This document shows positions 30,561-33,004 of a DNA stretch of 64,000 bases, piece after piece (within the stretch, counting starts at the first letter, position 1; every line of letters starts with the position of its first letter). The DNA is from Micromonospora sp. NBC_01699. GTDB taxonomy: Bacteria > Actinomycetota > Actinomycetes > Mycobacteriales > Micromonosporaceae. Both the position numbers and the translations under genes were made by a program. Under the pieces are notes generated by a model that was not told the origin of the DNA, made no database searches, and saw nothing but the letters and a program-made list of their open reading frames with translations. Location: contig NZ_CP109199.1 in NCBI RefSeq assembly GCF_036250065.1, positions 7,190,001-7,254,000 on the forward strand, read 5' to 3'.

Positions 30561-30707
30561 CCCCTCCCCCCCCCTCCCCCTCCCCCTCCCCCGAGCGCCC
30601 GCGATCTAGGGCGAATGGTGGTGATCAGAGATCAACAAGCACGTATTCGCCCTAGATCGCGGGCGCTCCGGGGGAAGGGGGAGGGGAGGGGGCGAGGGGG
30701 TGGGGGT
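30561..30707. repeat. Very long hairpin with C-rich and G-rich flanks
   Basis: Perfect 24-bp arms 30593-30616 and 30645-30668 enclose a 28-nt loop. The stem is extended by a pyrimidine tract on the left (about 30561-30592, nearly all C) and a complementary purine tract on the right (30669-30707), giving an imperfect stem of over 50 bp. The G-rich side could form quadruplexes. The right arm, loop and part of the left arm are read through by the ThrRS-like gene, whose stop codon (30606-30608) lies in the left arm. Confidence 0.8.
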
Positions 30708-31886
30708 GGCGATCAGGTGTAGGGCGTTGGGGGTGGGTAGGGGGGCCAGGGGTTGGCGGTTGCGTGGGCGCAGCGAGACCATGTTTTCGGCTGCTTCGCG
30801 GGGGCCGATCACGGCGGCGTACGGGACGCGGCGGCGGGCGGAGGCGCGTACGCGGGCGCCGAGCGAGCCGTCGACGGTCAGTTCCGCCCGCAGCCCGGCC
30901 TCGACGGCCTGCCGTACGAAGGCGGCCGCGAACGCGTACTGCTCGGGGCCGATTGGGAGCACCTCCAGTTGCACCGGGGCGTACCAGACCGGGAACGCCC
31001 CGTCGTGCACCTCGATCAGGTACGCGAACAGCCGCTCCATGCTGCCGATCAGGCTCCGGTGCACGATCACCGGTCGACGCGGCCGACCATCGGAGTCCAT
31101 GTAGGACAGGTCGAACTTCTCCGCCTTGTCGAAGTCGAGCTGAATGGTGGACAGGGTCGACTCCCGACCGGCCGGGTCCTGGATCTGGATGTCGATCTTC
31201 GGCCCGTAGAACGCCGCCTCGCCGGCCGCCTCGACGTACGGTTGGCCGGCCGCGTCGAGCGCCTCCCGGAGCAGGTTCTCCGCCCGCTGCCACACGTCGT
31301 CGCCGCCGACGTACTTCTCGCCCGGTCCGCGCAGCGAGAGCCGGAACCCGGCCGGTCGTACGCCGAGCGCGGCGTGCGCGGTCCGGATCAGCCCGAGGAT
31401 CTCGGCGACCTCGTCGCCGACCTGCTCCAGGGTGCAGAAGTTGTGCGCGTCGTTGAGCCAGATCGCGCGTACCCGGCTGAGGCCGCCGAGCACCCCGGAC
31501 CGTTCCGACCGGTACATTCCGCCCAGCTCGCCGATGCGCAGCGGCAGCTCCCGGTAGGACCGGCCGCGCGCACCGAAGACGAGGCAGTGGTGCGGGCAGA
31601 GCGCCGGCCGGAGCACGAACTCGTCGTCGTCGGAGAGGCGCATCGGCGGGAACATGTCGTCGGCGAAGTAGCCGAGGTGCCCGGATCGTTCGAACAGTTC
31701 GCGTTTTGCCATCGGGGGCGAGTAGACGTGCTGGTAGCCGGCGCGCCGCTCCAGCTCGCGGACGTACTCCTCGACGGCGTGCCGGGCCGCGGCGCCGGCC
31801 GGCAGCCAGATCGGCAGGCCCGCGCCGGAGAGGGGGTCGGCGTGGAACAACTCCAGTTCGCGGCCCAACCTGCGGTGGTCGACCAT
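30606..31886 (-). CDS. Threonyl-tRNA synthetase paralogue lacking TGS and editing domains
   Basis: 426 aa, against about 640-680 for housekeeping ThrRS. Only the class II catalytic core (about 1-275) and anticodon-binding domain (about 285-375) are present; there is no N-terminal TGS or editing domain. Zinc ligands are kept: Cys in RPALCPHH, His in NDAHNFCTLEQ, His in VIVHRSLIGSMER. Motif 2 is MYRSERSGVLGGLSRVR. The segment after it, AIWLNDAH, differs from the usual GFTQDDAH, so Gln381 (E. coli numbering) becomes Leu. The last 50 residues come from repeat DNA. The ATG has AGGAG 7 nt upstream. A Thr-codon leader peptide and hairpins lie upstream. It may be an inhibitor-resistant or stress-induced enzyme. 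Confidence 0.88.
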   Translation of the reverse strand: MVDHRRLGRELELFHADPLSGAGLPIWLPAGAAARHAVEEYVRELERRAGYQHVYSPPMAKRELFERSGHLGYFADDMFPPMRLSDDDEFVLRPALCPHHCLVFGARGRSYRELPLRIGELGGMYRSERSGVLGGLSRVRAIWLNDAHNFCTLEQVGDEVAEILGLIRTAHAALGVRPAGFRLSLRGPGEKYVGGDDVWQRAENLLREALDAAGQPYVEAAGEAAFYGPKIDIQIQDPAGRESTLSTIQLDFDKAEKFDLSYMDSDGRPRRPVIVHRSLIGSMERLFAYLIEVHDGAFPVWYAPVQLEVLPIGPEQYAFAAAFVRQAVEAGLRAELTVDGSLGARVRASARRRVPYAAVIGPREAAENMVSLRPRNRQPLAPLPTPNALHLIATPTPSPPPLPLPPERPRSRANTCLLISDHHHSP

Positions 31887-31944
31887 GTCAATGCTCCTGA
31901 CTCGGGTACGACCCTGAGCCCGGCCCACCCGAACTTCGAGTGGC

Positions 31945-32103
31945 GGACCGGTCGGGGCGGACCGGTCCGGAGTACGAAGCGGCCCCGGAGCGGTTCGCCC
32001 CGGGGCCGTTGGTTGACGGTGAGAGATTTCGCGTCAGCGCGGCACGCCGGGGTGACCCGGCGTCGTCGTCTCTGCCACGAAATGCTGCATGCCGGGCAGG
32101 TTA
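31945..32103 (-). promoter_or_regulatory. Putative threonine attenuator of the ThrRS paralogue
   Basis: Read on the minus strand: a TAACCT -10 box (32103-32098), 7 nt, then the leader peptide ATG (32090). Hairpin 1 (arms 32056-32063 and 32044-32051, 8 bp, 4-nt loop) begins on the third Thr codon. Hairpin 2 (arms 32000-32008 and 31980-31988, 9 G/C bp, 11-nt loop) is the likely terminator. Hairpin 3 (arms 31960-31968 and 31945-31953, 9 bp, 6-nt loop) follows. The distal arm of hairpin 1 contains CCCCGG, complementary to CCGGGG in hairpin 2, a possible antiterminator pairing. Stalling at Thr codons when charged tRNA-Thr is scarce would switch the fold and permit readthrough. Confidence 0.75.
32034..32090 (-). 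CDS. Thr-codon leader peptide of the ThrRS paralogue
   Basis: 18 codons: MQHFVAETTTPGHPGVPR, stop TGA. Residues 8-10 are three consecutive Thr codons, all ACG, placed directly before an 8-bp hairpin, as in classic amino-acid attenuators. The ATG has no Shine-Dalgarno but lies 7 nt after TAACCT, so the mRNA probably starts at the ATG itself. It ends 147 nt before the ThrRS-like start. It lies in the 51-210 nt after the transglutaminase stop, outside any other gene. Confidence 0.75.
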   Translation of the reverse strand: MQHFVAETTTPGHPGVPR

Positions 32104-32140
32104 CGCCGCCCTCGGTACCCACCGCACCCGCATTTACCCG

Positions 32141-33004
32141 TCACCGCAGCCGGGTGATGGTGACCTCCACGCCCTGGCCGGTGTTCTTGGGGCCGGAGTA
32201 GACGCCCTTGAGCGGCGGTACGTCGCCGTACTCCCGGCCACGCCCGACCACGACGTGCCGCTCGCCGATCGGGATGCCGTTGGTGGGGTCGAAGCCGGTC
32301 CACCGGCCGACCCACCACTCCACCCAGGCGTGGCTCTGCCCGACGACGCTCTCGCCGATGCTGGCCGACGGTGACGGGTGCAGGTAGCCGGAGACGTAGC
32401 GGGACGGGATGCCGGCGGACCGCAGCAGCCCGACCAGCAGGTGGCTGATGTCCTGGCAGACGCCCTTGCGCTGGCGCCAGGCCTGCACCGCGTCGGTCTG
32501 TACGCCGGTCGAGCCGGCGGTGTACGCCACCTCGTCGCGGATCTGTTCGCAGAGCGCCAGCGCGGTCGCGTGCGGGGTGGGGTGGCCGGCGCGGGCGATC
32601 TCGGCCAGCGCGGTCAACTCCTCGTCCAGGGCGGTACGCGGGGTCGGCAGCAGCAGTTCGTGCCACCGGTCGACGTGTTCCGGCCGGGCCAGGTCGGCCC
32701 AGCTCGCGCCGCCGGTGGTGGGTAGCAGGTCACCGGCGGGCAGGGTCTCCACGGTCGACGCGGCGGTGACCCGCAGCGCCTCGTGCGCGCTGTGTACGTC
32801 GAACGCGGTGACCGAGGTGCCCCAGTAGTCCTCGTAGCGGTAGGTGCGGGCCGACGGCCACACCTCCACCCGCGCGTCGAGCACCGCCTGGCGGGTTTCG
32901 TTGCGGGGCGACATCCGGGCCTCGTTGTACGACGACGCGACCTTGCCTGCGTAGCTGAACCCGGTCCGGTGGATGATCTTCAACCGCCAACTGTTGACGC
33001 TCAC
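32141..33004 (-). CDS. Transglutaminase-like family protein
   Basis: 287 aa. The N-terminal beta domain (WRLKIIHRTGFSY) is followed by the papain-fold core. The triad is Cys in RKGVCQDISHLLVGLLRSAG (about residue 183), His in GQSHAWVEWW (about 224) and Asp in GFDPTNG (about 240). It is the third gene of an operon with a circularly permuted ATP-grasp and an alpha-E protein, 22 nt after the latter. In this conserved triad the transglutaminase-like enzyme is predicted to act as a peptidase or amide-exchanging enzyme on the peptide tag made by the ATP-grasp ligase. Its substrate is unknown. Confidence 0.92.
   Translation of the reverse strand: MSVNSWRLKIIHRTGFSYAGKVASSYNEARMSPRNETRQAVLDARVEVWPSARTYRYEDYWGTSVTAFDVHSAHEALRVTAASTVETLPAGDLLPTTGGASWADLARPEHVDRWHELLLPTPRTALDEELTALAEIARAGHPTPHATALALCEQIRDEVAYTAGSTGVQTDAVQAWRQRKGVCQDISHLLVGLLRSAGIPSRYVSGYLHPSPSASIGESVVGQSHAWVEWWVGRWTGFDPTNGIPIGERHVVVGRGREYGDVPPLKGVYSGPKNTGQGVEVTITRLR

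Follow-up and report, generated by a model that had tools for sequence, protein, structure and literature searches.

A predicted threonine-sensing attenuator with a leaderless leader peptide ahead of a spare threonyl-tRNA synthetase gene in Micromonospora and its relatives

The window analyzed here is the whole 64,000-nucleotide stretch of Micromonospora sp. NBC_01699 DNA given above. Its minus strand carries a gene for a short threonyl-tRNA synthetase (ThrRS), preceded by a small reading frame, several hairpins and a candidate promoter. Listed in the direction of transcription, the features were as follows.

32131-32136, minus strand: WblC/WhiB7-like box TAAATG, 4 of 6 positions agreeing with the consensus GAAAWY, 3 bp 5' of the -35 hexamer
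32122-32127, minus strand: -35 hexamer GTGCGG, spacer to the -10 hexamer 18 bp
32098-32103, minus strand: -10 hexamer TAACCT, 7 nt before the leader ATG
32034-32090, minus strand: leader peptide frame MQHFVAETTTPGHPGVPR*, 18 codons; the A of the start codon (32090), 8 bp past the -10 hexamer, is the predicted transcription start
32061-32069, minus strand: Thr codon run ACG ACG ACG
32044-32063, minus strand: hairpin 1 (segments 1:2), 8 bp, starting on the third Thr codon
32047-32052, minus strand: CCCCGG, candidate antiterminator strand (segment 2)
31998-32003, minus strand: CCGGGG, candidate antiterminator partner inside the terminator 5' arm (segment 3)
31980-32008, minus strand: terminator-like GC hairpin (segments 3:4), 13 bp with a 3-nt loop in the fold
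31971-31979, minus strand: tail CUUCGUACU
31945-31968, minus strand: third hairpin, outside the conserved element
31894-31898, minus strand: AGGAG, ribosome-binding site of the ThrRS gene
30606-31886, minus strand: short ThrRS paralogue, 426 aa, with a class II core and an anticodon-binding domain and no N-terminal editing part

A first-pass annotation of this DNA had described the 18-codon frame with three consecutive Thr codons, an 8-bp hairpin beginning on the third of them and a TAACCT box 7 nt before the ATG, and all of these were present. It had also placed a 9-bp hairpin at 31980-32008; a hairpin does lie there, but its stem is longer than proposed. The third hairpin, likewise noted before, exists, but its conservation stops at the genus: by eye it recurred in the genus mates L010 and L011 alone and was absent from the Micromonospora rows compared. 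The 218-nt region folded at -118.7 kcal/mol (z = -5.26), and none of 200 dinucleotide shuffles equaled it. No Rfam family reached its gathering score anywhere in the window, and a permissive scan of 31600-32300 gave sub-threshold matches to unrelated families only, so that a T-box or other known RNA family was set aside. A consensus scan at the locus found neither a terminator nor a sigma-70 promoter. Upstream of the ThrRS unit lies a transglutaminase-like gene on the same strand, and a TetR-type gene follows downstream. At 30606-30760 (minus strand) the ThrRS frame stays open for about 50 residues past the point where conservation stops and would add a Pro-rich tail.

Aligned to profile positions 171-554 of NCBIfam thrS, the short ThrRS scored past the cut-off, and it matched the catalytic half of solved ThrRS structures. 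The same genome also encodes a second, long ThrRS; where the two proteins overlap, 43% of residues are identical. A tree was built from 74 short and 8 housekeeping rows plus the S. aureus and human enzymes. It placed the short rows in a single group (100/96) separate from that of the housekeeping rows, with long outgroup branches that leave the wider placement unsure. Matches to the short ThrRS were found in 263 of 354 family genomes (29 of 44 genera) at E <= 1e-110, and in 62 of 394 genomes sampled across the class (18 of 138 genera) at E <= 1e-104. Each of 45 carriers chosen from the family search had exactly two ThrRS matches. Partial short ThrRS matches, as if the copies were broken or diverged, were seen in six genomes (G151, G214, G306, G307, G349 and G441), and several of these keep the leader.

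We collected upstream DNA from 169 loci with a ThrRS match, among which 160 non-housekeeping rows represented 146 distinct regions. The leader was defined by the rule TANNNT, 6-8 nt, ATG or GTG, 4-9 open codons and ACN-ACN-ACN-CC. The comparison proposed by the first-pass annotation, a search for Thr runs in orthologous leaders, bore its reading out: the full rule was found in 142 of the 146 distinct regions 5' of short ThrRS genes, and the Thr-Thr-Thr-CC part alone gave an identical 142/146. Examples include species of Micromonospora, Plantactinospora, Asanoa and Catelliglobosispora as well as Streptomyces fumigatiscleroticus. As background, a single further 400-nt window among 4350 (all loci, leader-bearing windows skipped) agreed with the rule. 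None of the 9 housekeeping thrS rows (8 distinct) carried it, and there was no second strong site for the covariance model described below in the own genome; control of the housekeeping thrS by the same leader was thus discarded. GTG-started frames with TTT before some housekeeping genes were also rejected, the CC-hairpin pattern being absent from them. The four regions outside the rule, which were dropped from further counts, were L031 (Pro-Thr-Thr), L120 (Thr-Thr-Pro-Pro), L125, whose leader is cut by the contig end, and L140, where the gene copy is broken and the upstream offset unsure. L031 and L120 are intact genes with just two consecutive Thr codons and are the sole non-synonymous breaks among intact, fully read regions.

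Codon usage in the run was tallied in 131 distinct leaders, conditional on the ACN-ACN-ACN-CC anchor (the unconditional tally being the 142/146 above). The first Thr codon was ACG in 84, ACC in 46 and ACT in one; the second was ACG in 128, ACC in two and ACA in one; the third, which sits within hairpin 1, was ACG in 131/131. The first two codons lie outside hairpin 1 and differ from ACG at the third base in 47 and 3 of the 131 leaders, respectively. Codons 5' of the run vary freely, and an in-frame start and stop are retained across the anchored leaders. As changes in codons 1 and 2 are nearly all synonymous, the pattern is what coding for Thr predicts, unlike RNA structure alone.

An extract of PMC7157823 describes the WblC-activated promoters of Streptomyces coelicolor as GAAAWY, 3 bp, a -35 element (TKGMNN), 16-19 bp and TANNNT, with transcription starting 7 or 8 bp past the -10 element, and lists thrS2 and trpS (SCO3334) among the WblC-activated genes. 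TANNNT was present in 131/131 anchored leaders, 6-8 nt ahead of the start codon. With the start codon at this distance from the -10 box, the predicted 5' end of the RNA falls on the leader ATG, which lends support to an earlier guess that the leader is itself leaderless. Promoter boxes were counted in alignment A1, 81 nonredundant leaders left after removing those >88% identical. A box agreeing with GAAAWY at least at 5/6 positions lay at -33 +/- 1 from the -10 element in 48/81 leaders; the remaining offsets tried gave 0 to 6. A box of at least 4/6 exactly 3 bp before the -35 element, with a 16-19 bp spacer, was found in 65/81 (slid controls, 5 to 11), and the exact GAAAWY in 23/81. The remaining 16/81 fail this box rule, and the window's own box scores 4/6. 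Judged from the sequence, this is a promoter of the WblC/WhiB7 antibiotic-stress type, and WblC would be expected to bind at the locus. The own genome encodes six WhiB-family proteins, one of them with an RGRP AT-hook, which we take to be a mark of WhiB7/WblC. We also assume that thrS2 is SCO3778, a member of the short ThrRS family. SCO3778 is termed a threonyl tRNA synthetase in the available part of a sigma-E study (PMC10771440).

The hairpins could be followed in the same 81 leaders. Hairpin 1 had at least 6 bp in 80/81, and a contiguous terminator stem of at least 8 bp was present in 76/81. Across the two elements, 12/18 pairs were changed on both sides, against 4.7 +/- 1.1 after shuffling, on a structure drawn partly from the L009 row. 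Most of these were in the terminator (10/11 pairs, versus 2/7 in hairpin 1, whose core is nearly invariant); the compensatory changes anticipated by the first-pass annotation are therefore present, mainly in the terminator. Paired cells made up 92.0% in hairpin 1 and the terminator and at most 61% on sliding. Besides, the longest stem past the leader stop averaged 12.4 bp versus 6.7 bp in shuffled sequences. The 8-nt tail held 3.1 U on average versus 1.05 expected from composition, about threefold (range 0 to 6 of 8); such U tails are modest. RNAalifold on the MAFFT alignment of these leaders recovered just 4 pairs of hairpin 1. An arm-permutation test of the terminator was biased, as the stem had been chosen for pairing, and we relied on the stem-length and covariation results instead; the stem is a candidate intrinsic terminator. 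Taken together, the orthologous Thr runs, the hairpins and the -10 box support the original reading of the region as a ribosome-mediated attenuator, as far as sequence comparison can.

The candidate antiterminator, CCCCGG with CCGGGG (segments 2:3), could pair in 94% of cells. Its covariation did not exceed that of shuffles, and its pairing energy was about equal when segment 3 was taken from other leaders or shuffled. In a stall model, the leader engaged the terminator 5' arm with a mean probability of 0.82 when a ribosome was stalled on the first Thr codon, 0 when it was at the stop and 0.36 without a ribosome; a shuffled terminator arm still gave 0.71. The antiterminator is thus a candidate, since the shuffled arm was engaged too, the energies were non-discriminating and covariation did not rise above shuffles. 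Two further pairings were noticed by eye. In many relatives, CAGCGCG at the leader start can pair with CGCGCUG in the stop region. In many Streptomyces-like leaders (L148-L175), pairing is possible between the terminator loop GGGGCGAGUG and CACUCGCC, which lies just 5' of the ThrRS ribosome-binding site, and this might add a translational layer.

The specificity of the element was examined with a covariance model. In the 8.3-Mb own genome, the model scored 92.3 bits at the locus and 24.8 bits at the next best site. In 19/19 carrier genomes among 32 chosen, a site of 49-93 bits lay directly 5' of the short ThrRS gene; seven of these carriers (G390, G441, G551, G557, G560, G626 and G712) contributed no sequence to the model. 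In the other 13 genomes, which have no short ThrRS at the search thresholds, scores reached at most 32.1 bits. Above 49 bits the downstream gene was a ThrRS in every case examined, and the best other match, at 36.6 bits, was an aromatic leader. At L208 (G583:C1:2563342-2563481; opposite strand L209, L210), a leader with many Phe, Trp and Tyr residues, MQRKFWRFYGYRPSGRTVALLALR*, has a GC hairpin with a U tail and precedes an ORF resembling DAHP synthase by eye; it is likely an aromatic attenuator. Aromatic-rich leaders adjoining GC hairpins were also seen in genomes without a short ThrRS, at L202 (G112:C45; VTQSARFYFYYGTDSPSRGSSR) and L204 (G027:C10; VIQRARFYFYGTGSPAAVGRV).

Residues of the active site were counted in 147 short proteins, in human numbering and with gaps excluded. 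The zinc and catalytic positions C413, H464, H590, R442, D564, Q562, T560, Y540 and F539 are kept. At borrelidin contacts listed in the available text of PMC4389257, however, the short proteins are altered: M411 is replaced by A in 82, S in 62 and G in one of 145, Q460 by L in 146/146, A592 by S in 141 and G in 5 of 146, and Y392 by F in 109/145, and position 567 (L) holds K in 76, Q in 68 and M, R and L in one each of 147. In all 8 housekeeping rows M411, Y392 and A592 are unchanged; Q460 is found in seven (M in one) and L567 in five (Q in three). The same partial source ties changes at several contact positions to archaeal borrelidin resistance, and changes of E. coli L489 (equivalent to L567) to selected resistance. 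It also reports that the human L567R and L567W enzymes were inactive, a warning that K567 should not be read as simply tolerant. Positions 460 and 592 of S. aureus ThrRS are L and G, respectively; together with Q567 in 3/8 housekeeping rows, this means that such changes alone are no proof of resistance. Obafluorin-type resistance through a change of Gly463, the position altered in ObaO according to an extract of PMC11252418, was rejected, Gly being present in 147/147 short ThrRS proteins. Two features of an auxiliary resistant synthetase were found: a second gene beside the housekeeping copy, and changed drug contacts combined with intact catalytic residues. The residue pattern suggests that the spare ThrRS is probably inhibitor-tolerant. 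Both these altered residues and the WblC-type promoter had been overlooked in the first-pass annotation.

Our preferred reading, to which we assign a probability of roughly 0.78, is ribosome-mediated attenuation of transcription: a leaderless leader peptide behind a WblC/WhiB7-type promoter would control a spare, probably inhibitor-tolerant ThrRS. Translation stress would raise WblC and thereby activate the promoter, and RNA synthesis would begin with the A of the leader start codon. When Thr-tRNA is ample, the ribosome would reach the UGA just past the 3' arm of hairpin 1, the terminator would form and the spare ThrRS would stay off. Under Thr exhaustion or a block of the housekeeping ThrRS, the ribosome would stall on the Thr codons and cover the 5' arm of hairpin 1; the freed 3' arm would then hold the terminator 5' arm, RNA polymerase would read into the ThrRS gene, and the spare enzyme would restore Thr-tRNA. 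Comparison among relatives backs the leader, the Thr run, the -10 box, hairpin 1, the terminator stem, the promoter box, the intact catalytic residues and the altered borrelidin contacts, while termination, the antiterminator, stalling as the signal, WblC binding at the locus and drug tolerance are predictions. The mechanism as a whole appears to be a well supported prediction. It is about an even bet that it extends to a two-input defense circuit across several actinobacterial families, in which a WblC promoter and a leaderless Thr leader drive a ThrRS whose rebuilt active site keeps out borrelidin-like inhibitors; poisoning of ThrRS would then trigger its own antidote.

Several other explanations were weighed. 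The leader may sense Thr-tRNA and have no intrinsic terminator, with stalling acting through Rho, translational masking or coupled reinitiation. The modest U tails and the antiterminator without covariation would fit this, and actinobacterial cys leaders without obvious terminators are known from the part of PMC1262725 available. We nevertheless consider it unlikely in view of the long GC stem, which is far above shuffles in the 81 leaders, the compensation of 10/11 of its pairs and the approximately threefold excess of U in the tail. A different possibility concerns the enzyme, namely that the short ThrRS is a synthetase-like protein with a non-translation job. Its N-terminal editing part is absent, and K567, found in 76/147, recalls the human L567R enzyme that is given as inactive in the available text of PMC4389257. 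However, the protein retains its anticodon-binding domain along with the zinc and catalytic residues and passes the NCBIfam thrS cut-off; a leader sensing Thr-tRNA would, by our reasoning, otherwise make little sense, which makes a non-translation job quite improbable.

The remaining two explanations address the Thr codons themselves. If the upstream frame were a general drug sensor like that of wblC, stalled by ribosome-targeting antibiotics, its Thr codons would be incidental. Drug-sensing upstream frames do occur in Streptomyces, as an extract of PMC12421871 reports, and the promoter is of the WblC type; yet Thr residues are the only ones strongly kept 5' of the hairpin, their changes are nearly all synonymous, and a ThrRS lies downstream in every examined case above 49 bits, so that we regard a drug sensor as very unlikely. 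The idea that the Thr run is an untranslated by-product of conserved RNA structure can point to the invariant third ACG inside hairpin 1. This explanation is hardly credible, given that codons 1 and 2, outside hairpin 1, vary at the third base with two non-synonymous exceptions among intact genes, and that the in-frame start and stop are kept.

If the attenuator reading holds, threonine would join the amino acids sensed by leader peptides before aminoacyl-tRNA synthetases, and the locus would be a clear case of a leader peptide mRNA beginning at its own start codon. It would also offer a test case for the combination of a transcriptional (WblC) and a co-transcriptional (charging) signal, and would predict that intrinsic tolerance of ThrRS inhibitors is widespread among soil bacteria that produce antibiotics.

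Among known systems, Vecchione and Sello reportedly described in 2010 that trpRS1 (SCO3334) of S. coelicolor, an indolmycin-resistant auxiliary TrpRS, is under ribosome-mediated attenuation. As read here, the arrangement as a whole parallels the indolmycin-resistant TrpRS of Streptomyces. As with trpRS1, which is WblC-activated in S. coelicolor according to the extract of PMC7157823, an auxiliary synthetase is combined with leader-peptide attenuation; the amino acid and the enzyme differ, and drug tolerance and attenuation of the short ThrRS are computational predictions. Attenuation of a synthetase gene by a leader peptide had been called rare in the first-pass annotation, a view to be tempered for actinobacteria, where predicted attenuators already include those of Streptomyces trpS2 and leuS as well as those of trp operons (PMC1262725, in part). 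Those of trpS2 and leuS share with the Thr leader a short peptide rich in cognate codons, a candidate antiterminator and terminator, and an actinobacterial synthetase gene; the candidates in the available portion of that paper cover tryptophan, cysteine, leucine and ileS T-boxes, and thrS is not among them there. Our literature search returned no description of a Thr leader before thrS, and an earlier prediction is possible, for example in Lopatovskaya 2010, which by its title concerns attenuation of aminoacyl-tRNA operons.

Bacillus subtilis thrS and thrZ have a T-box as sensor, an RNA that binds tRNA. These two ThrRS genes are reportedly under antitermination and share with the short ThrRS the logic of a spare enzyme whose expression rises when charging falls (as proposed here for the short ThrRS); unlike them, the short ThrRS locus has no Rfam T-box. 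Pseudomonas fluorescens ObaO and the ThrRS of Streptomyces parvulus, which produces borrelidin, likewise have a changed inhibitor site (extracts of PMC11252418 and PMC4389257). In contrast to these enzymes of producers, the short ThrRS spans many species, keeps Gly463 and lacks the ObaO-type change. Anabaena T2, induced in low zinc and trans-edited by T1 in the account given by part of PMC4787780, is also a second ThrRS whose own editing is impaired or missing, but its trigger is different, and the short ThrRS keeps all zinc ligands. The kind of mechanism is thus already known, and the threonine version, its spread, the leaderless start and the WblC box appear to be new within the literature searched.
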